Of a DNA stretch of 38,738 bases, positions 3,622 to 31,291 are shown in pieces (positions within the stretch are counted from its first letter, which is position 1; each line of letters starts with the position of its first letter). Origin of the DNA: a virus; IMG/VR virus record IMGVR_UViG_3300005663_000115, positions 1 through 38,738 of that record, one strand, 5' to 3'. Below the pieces are notes generated by a model. The model was not told the origin of the DNA, did not search any database, and saw only the letters and a list, made by a program, of their open reading frames with translations. A program made the translations under genes and the position numbers.

Positions 3622-5161
3622 GGTCTTTGGGGTACGAAAAACCCACCCGTCTCGATTGCAACACGCCCACCTTGTCCCGCTTCGATCCACCGCAGGCATT
3701 CACCTAAACGAACATACTGCGCTGAGTTTTTCAGCGGTTTGGGCTGCGGTCAAGTTGATCTCTGAGACCGTGGCGCTTTTGCCGTGGCGCGTGTTCCGTG
3801 AAGAGGGCACGCAAAAGGAATTGCAGGCTGGTACTCAGCTCGATGTGCTTTTGCACAGTGAGCCCAACCCGGAGATGACCTCTTTTTCGTTTCGAGAGTT
3901 TATTGTCGCTTCTGCACTGTTGCATGGCAATGGATACGCTGAAATCGAGCTCTCGAGGTCCGGAGAGCCGCGCGCATTGCATCCGATACACCCTAGACAC
4001 GTTCAACCGATGCGCAACGCGCAAAAAAAGCTTTTTTATCGCGTTAGAAGCGATAACGGCGATTCAGTCGACCTTCCACCGCGCCAAATGTTCCACCTAA
4101 AGGGCCCAACTATTGACGGAGTCGTCGGCAGATCAGTCATTTCAATCGCTAAAGAGTCGATGGGATTAGGCATCGCTGCCGAGCAATTCTCGGCTGCATT
4201 CTTTGGAAATGGCGGCACGCCATCGTATGTCATCAAACAGGGCAACGAATCGCCTGATACGAGTCTCGAGGCCGCTAGCAACATACTCGAGTCATTCGAT
4301 CGACGACACAGGGGCGCAAAGAATGCAGGTAAGGCAGCATATTTGGAGAAAGGATTTGAGCTTGAAACCGTTGGTATCCCGCAAAAGGATGCACAGTTTA
4401 TTCAGCAACGAAAGTTTAACGTTACTGAAATAGCTCGATGGTTCCGTGTCCCGCCGCATAAAATCGCCGACATGGAAAAAGCGACGTTTTCAAATATCGA
4501 ATCCCAAGAGCGTAACTTCGTAATGGACTCGATCTTGCCTTGGACGATTCGCCTCGAGCAAGAGGCCAACCATAAGCTCGTGCGAGATCTGCACAACATA
4601 ACGAAAATGAATGTGCGTGGCCTGATGCGCGGTGACAGTGCGGCACGTGGTGCATTCTATACCCAGCTGCGCGATCTAGGTGTGTTCAGCCCGAATGAAA
4701 TTCGAGCTCTCGAGGATATGAATCCCTTTGCAGGTGGCGACTTGCGTGTGATTCCTGCGAACATGATTTCGCTTGAGCGGGCAGCTCAAGGTGGCGGCAG
4801 CGATCCGGCCGGCGCGGTGCGCGGCGTATTGCTCGAGGCGCACGATCGCATGATTACCAAAGAAGACCGAGCGTCCCAGAGGGCGATTGACTCAGGCAAA
4901 GATCTTTGTGCTTGGTCACAAGACTTCTACTCGAGGCATGAGCCGCAGATGTGTGACGCGCTGATGATACCGGCTTCGACTGCCGGTGATTTGGTAGGTG
5001 TCGACGCTGATATCGTTCGGGGTATTGTCGAGACCCACGTGAGATTGCACTGTGAGCTCTCGATGTCTGCAATGGTTTCCGGTGGGTGGAAAGCCAACGG
5101 ACAAGCGGCACAACAAACTGATCGGCTGATGGGTCGACTGATAGGGGCCAGTAATGTTTAA
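3611..5161 (+). CDS. portal protein (HK97 family)
   Basis: A 516-residue protein that forms the dodecameric vertex through which DNA is packaged and where the tail attaches. Recognisable HK97-portal features in order are: ALSFSAVWAAVKLISETVALLPWRVFRE at 38-65, the LLHGNGYAEIE segment near 103, the LKGPTIDGVVGRSVI segment near 163, and the clip/stem region with PPHKIADMEKATFSNIESQE near 280-300, where the IADM..TFSNIE string is diagnostic. The last hundred or so residues extend past the usual core and are helix-rich. It starts within the preceding gene and overlaps the protease gene by 8 nt. Confidence 0.93.
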   Translation: MLDKVFGVRKTHPSRLQHAHLVPLRSTAGIHLNEHTALSFSAVWAAVKLISETVALLPWRVFREEGTQKELQAGTQLDVLLHSEPNPEMTSFSFREFIVASALLHGNGYAEIELSRSGEPRALHPIHPRHVQPMRNAQKKLFYRVRSDNGDSVDLPPRQMFHLKGPTIDGVVGRSVISIAKESMGLGIAAEQFSAAFFGNGGTPSYVIKQGNESPDTSLEAASNILESFDRRHRGAKNAGKAAYLEKGFELETVGIPQKDAQFIQQRKFNVTEIARWFRVPPHKIADMEKATFSNIESQERNFVMDSILPWTIRLEQEANHKLVRDLHNITKMNVRGLMRGDSAARGAFYTQLRDLGVFSPNEIRALEDMNPFAGGDLRVIPANMISLERAAQGGGSDPAGAVRGVLLEAHDRMITKEDRASQRAIDSGKDLCAWSQDFYSRHEPQMCDALMIPASTAGDLVGVDADIVRGIVETHVRLHCELSMSAMVSGGWKANGQAAQQTDRLMGRLIGASNV

Positions 5162-11056: not shown

Positions 11057-11512
11057 GTGACGATAAGTAAACGAGGCGAGATCGATCTAGAGCTCGATGG
11101 TGAGACCTACACCATGGTGTTCAAGTACGAGACATTGATGGCTATCGAGGATGCCTTTGGTGGCACATCCATTGATGATCTGTTTTTGAGTGGCAACATT
11201 AGCCGATCGGCGCTTGCCGAGGGCATCCGGTGTGGTCTCGAGAAAGGCTATCGGAAAAAGACACGAAAGCAGATCGCAAGATTGATCGGTGCCACTGTCG
11301 AGGACGATGAGAATGCATATAACAAGATTACTCGGGCCGTGGTCAAAGGAGTCTTGATTGCCAACGGTGCTAGCAAAACTCAGATCGAGGAGCTCGATCG
11401 AGAAATTGATGAGGAGCTCGGAAAATTGGAGCCCATCAAGAAATTAAAAAAGGAGCTGGATAACGAGGACCCTACGAAGGCCCCTCCGGTCCAATTGACT
11501 TCGACTGGCTAG
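11057..11512 (+). CDS. tail assembly chaperone, first frame (gpG-like)
   Basis: A 151-residue protein expected to coat the tape measure while the tail is assembled. It has a beta-strand N-terminus (EIDLELDGETYTMVFKYE) followed by helices (TLMAIEDAFGGTSIDDLFL) and a charged C-terminus, as in gpG-type proteins. The start is GTG 11057 after AAGGAG. A perfect A-AAA-AAG slippery heptamer (11446-11452) is in the correct phase near the 3' end, but shifting there meets TAA at 11461. The second chaperone frame lies in the -1 frame. Confidence 0.8.
   Translation: MTISKRGEIDLELDGETYTMVFKYETLMAIEDAFGGTSIDDLFLSGNISRSALAEGIRCGLEKGYRKKTRKQIARLIGATVEDDENAYNKITRAVVKGVLIANGASKTQIEELDREIDEELGKLEPIKKLKKELDNEDPTKAPPVQLTSTG
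11464..11512 (+). other. inferred -1 frameshift window of the tail chaperone pair
   Basis: The -1 frame is open only from 11464, just after TAA 11461, while the first frame ends at 11512, so the ribosome must change frame within these 49 nt. Within this window the -1 frame codes GPIDFDWLVRTAAAIGLT; such an FDW-type start is familiar from the second chaperone domain in related tail modules and lies upstream of any start codon in that frame. The only slip-like run is AAG-GCC-CCT-CCG (11477-11488), which allows re-pairing of a Pro tRNA on CCC. The exact site is inference. Confidence 0.45.
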
Positions 11513-11550
11513 TAAGGACAGCCGCAGCCATTGGGCTGACTTCGGATCAA

Positions 11551-11787
11551 GTGTGCGCGATGTCGCCGCATGAATTCAGGCTGTATCGAGAGGGCGCTGC
11601 CGACAGAAAAGAGGATGAATACGCAATGTTCGCATGGGGGCAAGCAAACCTTATGACGATGTGGTGCGACAAGGGCAAAAGCGTTTCGCCTGAGCAGCTC
11701 TTTAAGCGTCGCGATGCTCCCCCGGAATTTGCAACCTCTGCAGAATTCACTGCCTATATGCGAGAGCAAGACGAGGACGATGAGTAA
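11551..11787 (+). CDS. tail assembly chaperone, second frame (gpT-like)
   Basis: The frame is open from 11464 to 11787; a GTG at 11551 is the first conventional start and would give 78 residues (CAMSPHEFRLYREGAADRKE onward). Conserved-looking coding, DFDWLVRTAAAIGLTSDQV, lies before that GTG, so the natural product is probably a fusion to the preceding protein made by -1 frameshifting, as with lambda gpG-T. The position between the chaperone and the tape measure gene, the acidic C-terminus (EQDEDDE) and the one-base overlap with the tape measure start all fit. Confidence 0.7.
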   Translation: MCAMSPHEFRLYREGAADRKEDEYAMFAWGQANLMTMWCDKGKSVSPEQLFKRRDAPPEFATSAEFTAYMREQDEDDE

Positions 11788-22220: not shown

Positions 22221-22523
22221 ATGAAAAATGCAGCGAAAGCTCTAGCACTCTTGGTGACTGGAGCAGCGATAGGCGGCGGCACGGTGACCCTTGCAGCACC
22301 CGACATCGCCTACCATGACAGAGCATATTCCCAGGTGTTGACTCGTGATGTCCGTGTCTACCGCGATGAGCTTGCCCGTGCAGCCAATTGGACAGGCTCA
22401 TTGGACGATGTTCGCAAGGCCTGTATCGAGAGCAACGGCGAAAAATCTAGCGTTGTCGTCCGTGGTAAAAATTACGCACCGAAAGCGGACGTGCCAGACG
22501 GCGTGAAGCTGATCAAGGAATGA
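22221..22523 (+). CDS. small exported or membrane-anchored protein
   Basis: A 100-residue protein with a hydrophobic N-terminus (KALALLVTGAAIGGGTVTLA) that reads as a signal sequence or anchor ending at an APD site. The mature part is charged, with one cysteine, and shows no family I recognise. A ribosome-binding site AAAGGAG lies 11 nt before the ATG. The stop overlaps the next gene as ATGA. It sits between fiber-like genes and the lysis genes, so it could belong to either set. Confidence 0.6.
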   Translation: MKNAAKALALLVTGAAIGGGTVTLAAPDIAYHDRAYSQVLTRDVRVYRDELARAANWTGSLDDVRKACIESNGEKSSVVVRGKNYAPKADVPDGVKLIKE

Positions 22524-22795
22524 CCTTGAGTCTCGAAATCATCATTGTATTGCTTGCTGAGTTGCCGGCGTTTGGGTTTGTGCTGTGGCTTTCTCATCGA
22601 ATGACCACGCACACGATCCCGAGACTTGCCGGTGATTTTCTAAGAGGACTCGAACAGCAACGCGATGATTTCAAAGATGCACTGAAAAGCCAGCGTGAAG
22701 AATTCCACAGGGAAATGGAGCGCGAACGCCAAATACACGGCGATCACGTAGAGCGGATTGTTCTAGCGATTCGGGACTCTAACAAAGGAGCATAG
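22520..22795 (+). CDS. single-pass membrane protein with coiled coil (lysis cassette)
   Basis: A 91-residue protein: an N-terminal membrane helix (LEIIIVLLAELPAFGFVLWL, residues 5-24), then a long charged helix (RGLEQQRDDFKDALKSQREE...) with coiled-coil character. This shape is seen in small inner-membrane lysis proteins and in phage proteins coded beside the holin. Identity is unclear: it could be a holin partner or an inner-membrane spanin. It overlaps the previous stop as ATGA and is two bases from the next gene. Confidence 0.6.
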   Translation: MTLSLEIIIVLLAELPAFGFVLWLSHRMTTHTIPRLAGDFLRGLEQQRDDFKDALKSQREEFHREMERERQIHGDHVERIVLAIRDSNKGA

Positions 22796-22797
22796 CC

Positions 22798-23250
22798 ATG
22801 GAAATCGAACTACCATTTTGGGCCAACCTATTGATCGCTGCAGCGCTTTTATTTTCGGGAACCATTGGGACTTATCTTGTCGGCGGCGTGCGAAAAGGAA
22901 TGAAGTGGCTCGATGAAAAAATTGATAACGAATATATTAGCGGCGTAATTCAACGTGCGACTCCGGTCCTCGAGGAGTTAGTCGACGAAACTTATAAAAC
23001 TTTTATCAAGCCGTTGAAAAAATCCGGCAAGTGGAATGCGGAAACTGCGCGCGAAGCCAAAGCAAATGTTGCCGGAAAATTCAGAATCCTTTGGGGCGCA
23101 GAAGGCGCAAGAAAACTCGTACATATTTTTGGGGCCCCTGACACGGTCGACGACTTTATCGGTGGGCTAGTTGAGCGCGCGGTTACGACACGCAAAACCG
23201 TAGGACGCAGGGCGAAGGCGCTCAAAGTCAAAAACCCTTCGAAGGGCTAG
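22798..23250 (+). CDS. putative holin (one membrane helix, long cytoplasmic tail)
   Basis: A 150-residue protein with one N-terminal membrane segment (WANLLIAAALLFSGTIGTYLVGG, residues 8-30), then GVRKGMKWLDEKIDNEYI and helices ending in a basic tail (RKTVGRRAKALKVKNPSK). The segment layout resembles the one-helix 'phage holin, LL-H-type' class and its neighbourhood (coiled-coil membrane protein before, endolysin after) supports holin. The 3' end carries C-AAA-AAC (23229-23235) just before the stop, next to an open -1 frame described separately. Confidence 0.6.
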   Translation: MEIELPFWANLLIAAALLFSGTIGTYLVGGVRKGMKWLDEKIDNEYISGVIQRATPVLEELVDETYKTFIKPLKKSGKWNAETAREAKANVAGKFRILWGAEGARKLVHIFGAPDTVDDFIGGLVERAVTTRKTVGRRAKALKVKNPSKG

Positions 23251-23465
23251 AGCTTGGCCTCGATGATTCGTTAGCTCTGGCCCCTGGACATGGATCACTC
23301 AAATTCACCGCGTTTGCAGACCCTCTGGGGCTGGGCGGCAAACTGAGATACAACCATCGATGGACCGATCACTGGTATGGGTTTGCAGAGGGCACAGCAA
23401 CGCTAGACCTGACGACGCGGCGTCCGGATTATTCCCTGGGCCTTGGCATAGGAGCAAGCTGGTAA
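23235..23465 (+). CDS. open frame without a standard start codon; beta-strand, outer-membrane-like product
   Basis: The frame is open from 23175 to the stop at 23463-23465 and contains no ATG, GTG or TTG. From about 23235 it reads like a real protein: GLELGLDDSLALAPG, LKFTAFADPLGLGGKLRYN, HRWTDHWYGFAEGTATLDL, and an end SLGLGIGASW. Alternating strands with aromatic girdles and a terminal Trp are typical of outer-membrane beta-barrel ends. It is in the -1 frame relative to the holin gene, so frameshifting at 23229-23235, a non-standard start (CTG 23277), or an assembly indel could explain it. The next gene starts one base after its stop, as expected for a translated cistron. Confidence 0.5.
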   Translation, partial: PFEGLELGLDDSLALAPGHGSLKFTAFADPLGLGGKLRYNHRWTDHWYGFAEGTATLDLTTRRPDYSLGLGIGASW

Positions 23466-23933
23466 ATGAGCAGACGACAAAAGGCAGCAAGTTGGACTCT
23501 GGTGATAGTGGTGATGGGTGGCCTCGCCTCAGATGTTTTCAATTATTTCACCAATCGGGACGATGCACACGAAACGGTCGCTGCAACGATTGCAACAACT
23601 GATGAGTTGCGTTGGAGGGCTCACGATCGAGAGCACGATCTTCATCACCTGGATAACATCAGAGTACTAGTTGATTTGCGTGGTGCGTTGGCAGCGATAG
23701 AGGAACTCAAGATCGCAATCGCATCTGTGCGCAAACAGGCGTTACTATATGACCAGGGATACGATAAAGCGGCCAAGCTCGAGGCGTCTAAAGCCGATGC
23801 CCTTTTGATGCCAAAGGAGCCGGCGTTGCCGCACCCACGGATCAAAAGCAGACGGGCCAATATTGCCGACATGGAGATCGAGCTCGAGCCCAAGGCTGTG
23901 CAGAAAAAAGCTGAGGAGCTCTATGCCGATTGA
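23466..23933 (+). CDS. membrane-anchored periplasmic protein, candidate inner-membrane spanin
   Basis: A 155-residue protein with a short basic start (MSRRQKAAS), one membrane segment (WTLVIVVMGGLASDVFNYF, about 10-28), and a long charged helical region (ELRWRAHDREHDLHHLDNIR..., AALAAIEELKIAIASVRKQAL). An N-in single anchor followed by a periplasmic coiled coil, coded between holin and endolysin, fits an i-spanin. No lipobox-bearing partner is visible. It overlaps the endolysin gene by 11 nt; TAAATG couples it to the preceding open frame. Confidence 0.55.
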   Translation: MSRRQKAASWTLVIVVMGGLASDVFNYFTNRDDAHETVAATIATTDELRWRAHDREHDLHHLDNIRVLVDLRGALAAIEELKIAIASVRKQALLYDQGYDKAAKLEASKADALLMPKEPALPHPRIKSRRANIADMEIELEPKAVQKKAEELYAD

Positions 23934-24381
23934 CCTACACGAAAAGCTATCGCCGCATTTCACGCTATCCGAGCTTGTCCACACATCGCATCGGTACATC
24001 GACAACAACCCAACGCCGGAAATCGTCGAGCAACTACGGACCCTCTGCCGGGATTTCCTCGAGCCGGTGCGGACCATTTTCGGACCGCTTCGAATCAATA
24101 GCGGCTATCGGTGCCCCGAGCTCAACACGGCGATCGGTGGGTCGAAGACCTCGGCGCATATGCACGGCTGTGCGGCTGATTTCGTGCCACTGCACGACTA
24201 CACGACGAATCAGATCGTTAAGTGGATTGCAGACAGCGGTCTGCCCTTTGACCAGGTGATCGACGAATACAGCTCAACGTCGAATTGGGTCCACATGGGG
24301 ATCGTGCCGCCTGTTAGGGATCCGCGCCGTCAGGTGCTGACGATGAGACGGGGCAAGTATTCGCTGTTTGATGGCAGCTGA
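23923..24381 (+). CDS. endolysin, zinc peptidase M15 family
   Basis: A 152-residue cell-wall peptidase. FTLSELVHTSHRYIDNNP at the N-terminus, RINSGYRCPELNTAIGGSKTSAHMHGCAADF in the middle, and WVHMGI near the C-terminus give the M15_3-type pattern 'SgyRs...N...gG...S.H..G.A.D' and 'WvH': His and Asp of H-x6-D and the late His are the zinc ligands. It is short and without signal peptide or wall-binding domain, so export depends on the holin. The start at ATG 23923 follows GAGGAG, within the previous gene. It ends in a TGATG overlap with the last plus-strand gene. Confidence 0.92.
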   Translation: MPIDLHEKLSPHFTLSELVHTSHRYIDNNPTPEIVEQLRTLCRDFLEPVRTIFGPLRINSGYRCPELNTAIGGSKTSAHMHGCAADFVPLHDYTTNQIVKWIADSGLPFDQVIDEYSSTSNWVHMGIVPPVRDPRRQVLTMRRGKYSLFDGS

Positions 24382-25245: not shown

Positions 25246-25728
25246 TTAGGGCCGAGCGTGCTTCAGCGGTAACGGGCAGACCAGGAAATAACCGTTTTTC
25301 TGTTTGTTTTCGAATTGCGGACCAAGCCCAAGGATCATTGTGTCGCGATCTGCGCCCGGATCTGGCTTGCCGTTTGGCAGGTTGAAGCTGATACGGCAAT
25401 CCGGCATAAAGATCGTGTAGTCTTTGGCATAATGGTGCATCCATTCTTGCGTGCAACCTGTTGGTACCAAGAGGATTGAATGGTTGGCACTGAACATTGC
25501 CTCGTACCAGGCTTTTTGCACCCAAAGTGTCGTATCTTTAAATTCCATATTGCAAAACGTCCAATTGATCCACGGCTGAATCAATCCGTTTTCTTTTTTT
25601 GTCCAAAACGCTTTACAGAGCGCGTCACGTTTTGATGCAGCTGCGTCGAGCCGAAATTTGATCTGGAAATAATCCTGCAATGCTTCGAACAACCATGGCG
25701 GCGTTCGTCTATTTTGAATTTTGGCCAT
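25246..25728 (-). CDS. Dam-type phage adenine methyltransferase relative with altered active site
   Basis: A 160-residue protein resembling the phage DNA N-6-adenine methyltransferase family. RRTPPWLFEALQDYFQIKF (7-25), FRLDAAASKRDALC, and the AFWTKKENGLIQPWINWTF string match the family's 'TP.wlfdaL...f...lDvaA...na.c..y.t...dGL...W....vw'. SILLVPTGCTQEWMHHYA and IFMPDCRISF match the later parts. However, the catalytic N-P-P-Y that normally follows W is here FCNMEF. The C-terminus also deviates (GADRDTMILGLG). It may be inactive or have changed its role. It overlaps the upstream gene by 20 nt. Confidence 0.7.
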   Translation of the reverse strand: MAKIQNRRTPPWLFEALQDYFQIKFRLDAAASKRDALCKAFWTKKENGLIQPWINWTFCNMEFKDTTLWVQKAWYEAMFSANHSILLVPTGCTQEWMHHYAKDYTIFMPDCRISFNLPNGKPDPGADRDTMILGLGPQFENKQKNGYFLVCPLPLKHARP

Positions 25729-28113: not shown

Positions 28114-28487
28114 TGTTCGGACTTTGGCTTAAATAATGAGGATGGCTCGGGCAGTCCCTGCATAACAAGCAACACTGCAAGAAACTCACGAGTATGATCG
28201 GATCCAAGGCATGCCTGTAGGGCAATTCTCCCAAGTGCACTCACTGGCCTATCGAGTTTTACGACCACATGCATATTACCGGGAGTCTTGGATTGCCATC
28301 GATCAATCTCTATGGCTCCCAAGTTGTTGCCGAGACGCTTTAGCCTTGCCTCGTAAATAGAAACGGCCAATGGTCCGTCCAGGTCAAGCAAAAGCAAATC
28401 TGGCTTACTGCCCACAACGACTTGACCGTCCTCTACAGCTTTATCGATCGCCGCATTTGTGATCTCCGGTGAACAGCTGTAGCTCAT
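28110..28487 (-). CDS. small protein with primase-polymerase-like motifs
   Basis: A 125-residue protein. PDLLLLDLDGPLAVSIYEARL has a strand then D-x-D (DLD near 35), and RWQSKTPGNMHVVVKLDRPV has a strand with GNMHVV, the pair resembling motifs I (DhD) and II (sxH) of archaeo-eukaryotic primases. A conserved helical end follows, GRIALQACLGSDHTREFLAV, which I know from a widespread phage family of unknown function ('eRiaLQa.LGSDp.rE'). At this size it would be only a minimal catalytic core. The alternative is a divergent regulator. ATGA overlaps at both ends. Confidence 0.55.
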   Translation of the reverse strand: MSYSCSPEITNAAIDKAVEDGQVVVGSKPDLLLLDLDGPLAVSIYEARLKRLGNNLGAIEIDRWQSKTPGNMHVVVKLDRPVSALGRIALQACLGSDHTREFLAVLLVMQGLPEPSSLFKPKSEQ

Positions 28488-29536
28488 CCAATGACCTCGC
28501 CCCCTAAAATGTTTCGAGCTGCGTCGACTGTCTCATTGCCGATTGCATTGGGGTGAATCGCTGCAAGTTCTTTGGAGCTGTAGTGACTCGATTTGTCCGC
28601 CGGGAATCCGTCCCGGGCACACTCTACGAATTCTCTGCCGTCCGCCATTTGATATTTTATCCAGTCGTCGCCGGCATCGATCGGCGTCGCATAGGGTATG
28701 AGCTCGGGAATATGCAAATGATTCTCACAGCCCTTGCGCTGATTGTCTTCGGGTATGTCGCAATCGTAGCGCGCACAGGTCCAGCGCGCCTTGCCATCGA
28801 GCTCAGGGGTCGCGTGTACGCACGTGCGACAGTTTACATCGGCTACTTGGTCGCCGTGGCACTGGTCTTTTGCTGGGCACCATTTGCATTCAAACCAATC
28901 CGGATCCTGGCTGATTTTCTCGAGCGGCGTTTTTGATTCGATGATCCGGAGGGCCTTTGTGTGGATCGCTTTGGATTTCTTTGGCTCGTATTTGATCCGC
29001 TTAACATAGATCGTGTCAGTGTCTTTACAGATTCCAATGTACACCGCGCGCTTTAGCTTGGCCATCCGCATATAGCTTTGACATTGTGCGAAGTGTTTGG
29101 GCTTCGACTTTTCAACACCGTGCTTTTTGAGCGCGGCAAAGCTCTTTTTGTTGTGCGTCTTGACTTCGAGCAAGTGCCAGGTCTTTGGGGCCTCTGGCAG
29201 CTCGAGCACAACGCCATCGAGTCCTCCGGAATAGTGGCCAGCGTGATCCGTGTAACGAAACTGATCGCCGTTTGCGTCTTTTTCGTGAACAGTGCAGCCG
29301 ATGGCTTTGAGGTTTTCTATCACGCGAGTTTCCTCGCGGTGGCCTGTTTCGAATAGGCGCAGGATGCGCCCCTCAAACTTTTGAGAAAACGCCCACCGAA
29401 AGCTATAAAACAGAAAACGCTCGCACGATTCACCGATCTGAGAGCCACCGAGGTAAGCTCTGGCGGGCTCGGATTGGCTTTCATATAGATCGTAAATCGC
29501 GCGTTCTGTTAGGCCTTCGGTGGGCAGCTCAACCAT
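28484..29536 (-). CDS. Cas4/RecB-like PD-(D/E)XK nuclease with putative iron-sulfur cluster
   Basis: A 350-residue nuclease of the exonuclease type used with phage recombinases. GSQIGESCERFLFY starts the core and gives Cys38. The catalytic set is His66 (ETGHREE), Asp107 (GGLDGVV), Glu124-x-Lys126 (LLEVKTH) and Gln151/153 (AQCQSYM). CKWCPAKDQC adds Cys217, Cys220 and Cys226, so the four-cysteine cluster layout of Cas4 and AddB is complete. A further Cys group (236, 239, 254, 259, 270) extends it. Coded three bases after the DUF669 protein and near a Sak4-like ATPase, it probably resects DNA ends for single-strand annealing or recombination. Confidence 0.88.
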   Translation of the reverse strand: MVELPTEGLTERAIYDLYESQSEPARAYLGGSQIGESCERFLFYSFRWAFSQKFEGRILRLFETGHREETRVIENLKAIGCTVHEKDANGDQFRYTDHAGHYSGGLDGVVLELPEAPKTWHLLEVKTHNKKSFAALKKHGVEKSKPKHFAQCQSYMRMAKLKRAVYIGICKDTDTIYVKRIKYEPKKSKAIHTKALRIIESKTPLEKISQDPDWFECKWCPAKDQCHGDQVADVNCRTCVHATPELDGKARWTCARYDCDIPEDNQRKGCENHLHIPELIPYATPIDAGDDWIKYQMADGREFVECARDGFPADKSSHYSSKELAAIHPNAIGNETVDAARNILGGEVIG

Positions 29537-30026: not shown

Positions 30027-30536
30027 TTATACCACCTTTTGTTGTGTGTGTTGATTGTGATTACGCCGATTGGCGTATTGTTCTTGATTGGTAGACCACT
30101 TGCAGTTTTCCGGCGAGTAGTTTCCGTCTGAGTCAATCCTATCTATTGTACATCCTTCCGGTCTTTTGCCTATATCCTTATAGAATTTTTCGAACGATGA
30201 CCACCTTTCACAGACACGGATACCTCGTCCGCCGTACCATGGGTACGATCCATTCGTTGGATTGTTGCATCTGTTTCGCATTGATTTCCATGTTGAATGG
30301 GTGGGCGTTCCTGACATGCCATGGGTTACTTGTTGCTGGCTTACTCTGTATCCGTGCTCACGCAAAAGACAACCGCAGCTTTTTGTCATCCCTGATTTCA
30401 GGGTCTTGCTGAACACAGGATCTTTTTTTGCTTCGCCGCAGTCACACCGGCAATCCCATTTTCCAGCACCCGCGTAACTGGTCACTATTAGTCGGCCAAA
30501 TCTTCGACCGATCATTGTCATGTCTGGTCGTCTCAT
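30027..30536 (-). CDS. HNH/AP2-type homing endonuclease-like protein
   Basis: A 169-residue protein of a mobile endonuclease type. Residues 5-60 (MIGRRFGRLIV...WDCRCDCG...LKSGMTKSCGCL) form the zinc-binding front with CRCDCG and SCGC, typical of phage AP2-containing endonucleases. Then follows THGMSGTPTHSTWKSMRNRC, PWYGGRGIRVCERW, GKRPEGCTIDRIDSDGNYSP and ENCKWSTNQEQYANRR, the well-known HNH-like/AP2 core. It lies between the ATPase and DUF669 genes, which usually adjoin. Genes of this type insert by self-homing, so it may be a passenger. ATGA overlap with the ATPase stop. Confidence 0.85.
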   Translation of the reverse strand: MRRPDMTMIGRRFGRLIVTSYAGAGKWDCRCDCGEAKKDPVFSKTLKSGMTKSCGCLLREHGYRVSQQQVTHGMSGTPTHSTWKSMRNRCNNPTNGSYPWYGGRGIRVCERWSSFEKFYKDIGKRPEGCTIDRIDSDGNYSPENCKWSTNQEQYANRRNHNQHTQQKVV

Positions 30537-31291
30537 GTCAGCGACTTGCTTATGCAGTCAGATAAGGCGCCCCACTCCAGAGGGATGCTCTCTGGAAGGC
30601 TGTATCGATTCTTCGCAACGAATGCAGGCCGCTCTTGGGTCCAAAGGAGGCGCTCGCCCACCGCGACTCCGCGCCTAGCTGTCTTGTCAAAACCGACATC
30701 CTCTGTCTGCACGATCGTGCGTTGCGAGGCATAGCCGATAATGTCACACCATTCCGACAAAACAGATGAAGTCCGCTGGTGCATCTTGAGGATATAGCGA
30801 TCGTACGGCTCGGTTTCAGGATCGTCAAAGCGTTTGACTTGGCTGTGCGCTGTCATGCCGACAACCATTGACCTGCTAAGCCTCAGGGCGTTAAGGCCCT
30901 CCAGGATTTTACGGAAAGCATCGGCGGCAAAAACGTAACCCTTGCCGTATCCGAATGCCTCGATGTTGTCTTTGCCGTTTTCTTCTGCAACATGCTTCCA
31001 AGTCAGGGCCTCGAGCCAATCGGCGGAGTCGATTACGATCGTTTTGAAATCATGCTTTTGAGTGTAGAGCTCTGTGATGACCTCCATCACATACGCATAG
31101 CTCTTGGCTGTTCCTTCCTTTGGCAGCTTTGCAACCTTGAGCTCATCAAGGCCATCCTCGGTTTGAATGAACAGGGGCTTTGGCGCCTTGCTGAAGAAGG
31201 TTGACTTGCCGATGCCCTCGTTGCCGTGTATCAAAATTCTGGGTGGCTTGGGTGTTTTGGAGGCTTTGATTGCCGATAGGTCGATGGCCAT
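30533..31291 (-). CDS. Sak4-like RecA-fold ATPase
   Basis: A 252-residue AAA/RecA-type ATPase. RILIHGNEGIGKST (19-32) is Walker A with the G-x-x-G-x-GKS/T form, TIVIDSADWLEALTW (about 84-98) has the Walker B strand with Asp, and MVVGMTAHSQVKRF (about 145-160) matches the sensor region of the phage 'nucleotide-binding protein' family called Sak4. Members promote single-strand annealing with SSB-like partners. It is the first gene of the minus-strand operon, reading away from the 106-bp divergent region. Confidence 0.88.
   Translation of the reverse strand: MAIDLSAIKASKTPKPPRILIHGNEGIGKSTFFSKAPKPLFIQTEDGLDELKVAKLPKEGTAKSYAYVMEVITELYTQKHDFKTIVIDSADWLEALTWKHVAEENGKDNIEAFGYGKGYVFAADAFRKILEGLNALRLSRSMVVGMTAHSQVKRFDDPETEPYDRYILKMHQRTSSVLSEWCDIIGYASQRTIVQTEDVGFDKTARRGVAVGERLLWTQERPAFVAKNRYSLPESIPLEWGALSDCISKSLT

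Follow-up and report, generated by a model that had tools for sequence, protein, structure and literature searches.

The window analysed here, the whole 38,738-nucleotide stretch of a 38.7-kb IMG/VR virus record, is that of an HK97-like siphovirus, judging from its terminase, portal, capsid and tape-measure genes. Its lysis cassette lies on the plus strand. A small gene for a predicted membrane/coiled-coil protein of 91 aa (22520-22795; PHROG 17962, unknown, E 6e-4) is found directly upstream of a gene of 150 codons (22798-23250) which matches the holin family PHROG 13712 (E 8.4e-6). The product of this second gene has one N-terminal transmembrane segment and a helical C-terminal part. Both the family match and the position in the cassette, two genes upstream of a peptidase M15 type endolysin, identify it as a predicted holin, which would permeabilise the membrane. 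The endolysin gene (23923-24381; PF08291, 8.4e-14; PHROG 894 endolysin, 2.6e-40; start ATG 23923 chosen by eye) encodes no signal sequence. It is preceded by an i-spanin-like gene (23466-23933), so called from reading its sequence, which has an N-terminal transmembrane segment and a long soluble part and no family match in Pfam or PHROG. Elsewhere in the window, on the minus strand, a Cas4-domain exonuclease (28484-29536; PHROG 1990, 5e-100) and a Sak4-like annealing protein (30533-31291; PHROG 124, 2e-49) apparently form a phage recombination pair, and a short DNA methyltransferase of 159 aa (25246-25728; PHROG 111, 5e-25) covers only part of its family profile.

Between the holin gene and the i-spanin-like gene an ORF scan detected a frame on the plus strand that is open over 96 codons from stop to stop (23175-23465). 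As the original prediction had described, it contains no ATG, GTG or TTG, it is in the -1 frame relative to the holin ORF, and its TAA (23463-23465) is immediately followed by the ATG of the next gene at 23466. Such a length alone is not rare, as the window holds 15 start-less frames of at least 60 aa. About 215 nt of this frame are located outside any other gene; the other start-less frames appear, by eye, to be inside genes. Over 23236-23465 its codon usage ranks at the top of the six frames; its score (0.00) exceeds that of about 97% of out-of-frame stretches but falls short of the 0.11 that marks the 5th percentile for true genes. We judge from sequence comparison that the frame is coding, because a homologous beta tail sits at the same place in another phage, and this homology is the decisive support.

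The homologue was found in L002, an independent podovirus-like contig that was reached as an endolysin relative. Here a 72-residue frame (LDYAGTLRPGSGRLDIGAIAD...GGLRMTW) is located between holin and endolysin and aligns end to end with the window tail (LDDSLALAPGHGSLKFTAFAD...GIGASW). The alignment score is 60, compared to 30 for the next unrelated segment among 4920 six-frame segments and 37 for the next unrelated frame in a six-frame comparison with all loci, and the shuffle z is about 4.1-4.4. On this sequence evidence the L002 tail is shown to be a homologue of the window tail. A second locus, L077, has a candidate tail (415-627) directly after a holin gene, and its holin resembles the L002 holin (z 4.2). 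The L077 tail is similar to the L002 tail (z 3.2) and, weakly if taken alone, to the window tail (z 1.2), making it a probable homologue. The family thus consists of three known members. In L002 an analogous small gene takes the place of the 22520-22795 gene; the genome as a whole is of another type and gene layout than that of the window. Because the holins of window and L002 cannot be aligned and the gene layouts differ, the holin-tail arrangement looks like a module common to both phages.

Further relatives were sought in several ways. The original prediction had proposed a comparison with phage proteins; this gave no family and no near relative, and L002 came to light through the endolysin relatives instead. 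No tail homologue was detected by tblastn in phages, in a single-sequence scan of viral contigs, or in Pfam, PHROGs and NCBIfam. Among terminase relatives, where the tail was compared with 43 records and a two-sequence profile with 50 records, only L002 was recovered, and a tail profile run against about 1150 proteobacterial genomes gave only noise. The closer endolysin relatives L003, L137 and L138 have cassettes without such a tail. A PDB sequence search with the tail remained at chance level, with the C-terminal strands of TamA as best match (E 1). A search for the DNA pattern encoding YNH..FAEG returned one match, in a transposase, which was rejected as chance. No relatives were found of the holin, the i-spanin-like gene and the 1006-aa tail gene of the window.

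The 3' end of the window holin gene reads GTC AAA AAC CCT TCG AAG GGC TAG, with the stop codon at 23248-23250. Five codons before this stop, in the holin frame, is the heptamer A-AAC-CCU (23232-23238, plus strand), a canonical X-XXY-YYZ slippery sequence. It overlaps C-AAA-AAC (23229-23235), which the original prediction had placed correctly but had taken for the end of the holin gene; the gene continues with CCT TCG AAG GGC TAG. As the main slip site C-AAA-AAC was replaced by A-AAC-CCU, which is canonical, common to L002 and correctly spaced from a stem of 11 bp. The spacer, TCGAA (23239-23243, plus strand), is 5 nt long, and the spacer in -1 frameshift signals is usually 5-9 nt (PMC5009743). 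The predicted minimum free energy (MFE) stem-loop (23244-23283, plus strand) has arms at 23244-23254 and 23273-23283 forming 11 bp, including one G-U, around an 18-nt loop, and it encloses the holin TAG. With an MFE of -22.4, the segment 23241-23290 is among the lowest 0.6% of the 50-nt windows in genes of the phage, and the z of the stem at the holin end is -2.7 to -2.9. Among the 69 canonical and near-canonical sites listed in the scanned window genes, the fold downstream of A-AAC-CCU is the most stable. An upstream Shine-Dalgarno stimulator was looked for, and nothing special was found in the window or L002.

Inspection of the two relatives revealed the same -1 geometry in L002 and, with the probable status of its tail, in L077. 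The L002 holin ends GGA AAC CCT CAA TAG, its tail is in the -1 frame, and A-AAC-CCT, identical to the window heptamer, is found at 4738-4744, three codons before the holin stop. The heptamer is followed after 6 nt by a 7-bp stem (TCCCGGA/TCCGGGA), which is significant in a short window only (z -2.9 for 31 nt versus -0.8 for 52 nt). As the holins are unalignable and the two genomes differ in type, simple descent of one holin does not account for the shared heptamer. The L077 holin ends GTG GGA AAG TCA AAG GGC TGA, again with the tail in the -1 frame, and carries G-GGA-AAG five codons before its stop. This is the heptamer of the lambda G-GT shift. A GGAGG sequence lies 13 nt upstream of it, and Shine-Dalgarno-like pairing of this strength occurs at 0.6% of control positions; the downstream stem is not special (z 0). 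L077 carries less weight than L002, because its heptamers stand in front of an ATG and consist of purine-rich, Shine-Dalgarno-like sequence. The signal is thus kept in divergent relatives, in full in L002 and without a notable stem in L077, across a family of three members. As background, 2042 ORFs that can be extended in an open -1 frame were examined; 2.7% of them have a canonical heptamer within the last six codons, so that its presence in all three by chance has a probability of about 2e-5; L002 and L077 had been picked by protein homology before their DNA was inspected for slip sites.

The heptamer, the frame and the homologous tail are established from the sequence, and slippage of the ribosome is what we infer from them. 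The explanation we favour, with a confidence clearly better than even, is that programmed -1 frameshifting yields two products, the 150-aa holin and a holin-beta fusion of 222 aa. The majority of ribosomes would read the holin gene to its TAG and release the 150-aa protein. A minority would pause when they meet the 11-bp stem, with the P site occupied by AAC and the A site by CCU. By moving back one base on A-AAC-CCU they would come to read AAA-CCC, and they would continue in the -1 frame to the TAA at 23463. The result would be a holin of 222 aa that ends in a beta tail of 75 residues and five strands. The tail-coding part of this predicted product (..KVKNP-FEGLELGLDDSLAL..GIGASW) would correspond to 23238-23462 on the plus strand. 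A frameshifted holin with a barrel tail was one of three options in the original prediction and is the best supported of them, with the slip site moved from C-AAA-AAC to A-AAC-CCU. Against frameshifting counts that the A-site slip would be on C-CCU, a strong pairing, and no documented A-AAC-CCU slip site was found in the literature searched.

The strongest competing explanation, which we consider unlikely, is that the tail has a small gene of its own, which lost its start codon when a single base was inserted or deleted at about 23254-23262, through either an assembly error or a natural mutation, and that ribosomes finishing the holin would otherwise restart at TTG 23254. Possible tail starts do stand at the beginning of the conserved tails in both relatives, so that separate synthesis of the tail is possible in each: ATG 415 in L077, which overlaps the holin stop, and TTG 4783 in L002. 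In the matching place the window has a Shine-Dalgarno-like GAAGGG (23241-23246) followed 7 nt on by TTG 23254 (together 23241-23256, plus strand), but this TTG is one frame off and its reading stops at TAG 23272. The Shine-Dalgarno pairing (-4.5 kcal/mol) is weaker than that of most starts in the window, and in L002 the SD-like GGGAG is about 12 nt from the TTG, with part of it base-paired in the hairpin. The window genes checked included no other broken one, and as most of these are intact and of full length, there is no sign of an indel-rich assembly. An assembly indel, also considered in the original prediction, is further weakened by the same geometry in the independent contig L002. A lost start would moreover leave the heptamer, the spacer, the stem and the identical L002 heptamer as coincidence. 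At the upstream edge of the conserved tail Gly-Leu is kept in all three members (GL-DD, GL-DY, GL-MD); lying before the possible start position or the following Asp, it fits translation from upstream.

It is improbable that the frame is a decaying remnant of a tail gene, unexpressed in the window phage: the lack of a start codon and a codon score that is low for a gene would agree with decay, but the frame is intact up to the conserved C-terminal Trp, shows strong strand alternation and abuts the next gene exactly. Least probable of all is initiation at a non-standard codon coupled translationally to the holin stop, either at CTG 23277, as originally suggested, or at CTC or CTT near 23253-23259: although GAAGGG lies 6-12 nt before CTT 23253 and CTC 23259, no ATT, ATC, ATA or CTG codon stands at the right distance, and CTG 23277 lacks Shine-Dalgarno pairing (+0.3 kcal/mol) and falls within the conserved domain (start at about 23256-23259), so that initiation there would remove conserved residues.

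The conserved part of the tail (GLDDSLALAPGHGS...GIGASW; 23256-23462, plus strand) was modelled with AlphaFold2 from the three-sequence alignment. A five-stranded antiparallel meander was predicted (pLDDT 86), and the same meander was obtained for the L077 tail (pLDDT 87). The C-terminal Trp and the beta-strand alternation noticed in the original prediction are both real: the alternation exceeds that of all but 0.02% of shuffles, with strand limits taken from the model, and all three tails have a terminal Trp preceded by an alternating pattern of hydrophobic residues (p 0.03, 0.01 and 0.006 for the C-terminal pattern). In Foldseek searches no match to the tail had an E value below 0.001; the best rows include cyanophage outer-membrane-like domains and phage YadA-like anchors, all weak (E 0.015 and 0.05 at best). 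VIA-align gave matches of mixed fold at Z of about 8, which comprised pieces of BtuB and PorB as well as soluble proteins. The modelled fold may thus be called outer-membrane-like, with matches to named folds that are all weak. No profile match to PF24653 or YadA anchors and no Pfam or PHROG family was found at E up to 1. The cyanophage domain (PF24653, PHROG 417) and the YadA-like anchors have in common with the tail a small antiparallel beta sheet, an aromatic C-terminus and a weak fold similarity, and differ in giving no profile match to it. A PF24653 member (5e-20) of Synechococcus phage S-TIP37 (L134 2806-3150), to which the L077 tail shows weak similarity in tblastn (E 0.6), differs from the window tail in having a signal-peptide-like start and in lying outside a lysis cassette.

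The proposed outer-membrane barrel holds as a sequence pattern only. Reading of the start-less frame identified no signal peptide. The charges flanking the holin transmembrane segment, none positive before and R-K-K after, suggest that the holin is probably N-out, C-in. Together these two features predict that the tail would face the cytoplasm. Because the tail is expected there, we favour, at about even confidence, a minority holin isoform which would alter hole formation or lysis timing. That the fusion, if made, acts instead at the outer membrane in a spanin-like manner with the 23466-23933 product is a reading we regard as unlikely to, at best, tentative. It would agree with the i-spanin-like gene directly following the tail, with the alternating strands, with the weak resemblance in fold to YadA-like anchors and to outer-membrane domains of cyanophages, and with the result of a simple and crude scan of the window (1-38738), in which no lipobox protein or spanin lipoprotein, and hence no lipobox of an o- or u-type spanin, was found. 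Kongari et al. remark that in spanin-less phages, among which cyanophages feature, an outer-membrane protein could serve as o-spanin (PMC6139136). Against it stand the lack of a signal peptide and the charge distribution, from which a cytoplasmic tail is predicted.

Among tailed phages, the best-known cases of frameshifting concern tail and capsid genes. The proposed mechanism resembles that of the lambda G-GT tail chaperones: a canonical heptamer shortly before the first gene ends, a -1 frame, and a minority product with a C-terminal extension. In lambda this product is a tail chaperone, whereas here it would be a lysis-cassette holin with an outer-membrane-like beta tail. The window also contains a G-GT type tail chaperone pair (11057-11787) before the tape-measure gene, consisting of an ORF at 11057-11512 (PHROG 2115, tail) and a -1 frame open over 11464-11787 (PHROG 7377, 3e-5). 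No canonical heptamer was found in the overlap of this pair; at G-GAC-CCT (11467-11473) and at G-GCC-CCT the A-site codon would be CCU, as it is at the holin site.

Lambda offers a known case of a single gene that yields two isoforms of a holin: its dual-start gene for holin and antiholin gives S105 and S107, which differ by two N-terminal residues. Similarly, the fusion would alter lysis as the longer S107 does relative to S105, but through a 75-residue C-terminal domain added by frameshifting rather than two N-terminal residues added by two starts. With the unimolecular spanin gp11 of T1 and the two-component Rz/Rz1 of lambda, the predicted fusion shares its place in the lysis cassette and a possible link between inner and outer membrane; unlike them it has no lipobox, and it combines an N-terminal inner-membrane segment with a C-terminal beta part. 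A search of open-access papers, which was not exhaustive, found no frameshifted holin. Programmed frameshifting and holins are each known, and their combination would be what is new here.

Taken more broadly, we hold at somewhat less than even confidence that these loci represent a lysis module common to unrelated phages, in which a minority of holins would gain an outer-membrane-like beta domain by programmed -1 frameshifting. Should frameshifting set the ratio of the two holin forms, lysis would be timed in a new way, and start-less frames behind holins would merit a systematic search. A tail that reaches the outer membrane would suggest a testable solution to the question, raised previously (PMC6139136), of how this membrane is broken by phages that lack spanin lipoproteins. 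The module may be either a ratio-set regulator of lysis or a case in which, in such phages, the holin joins the inner and outer membranes by itself.
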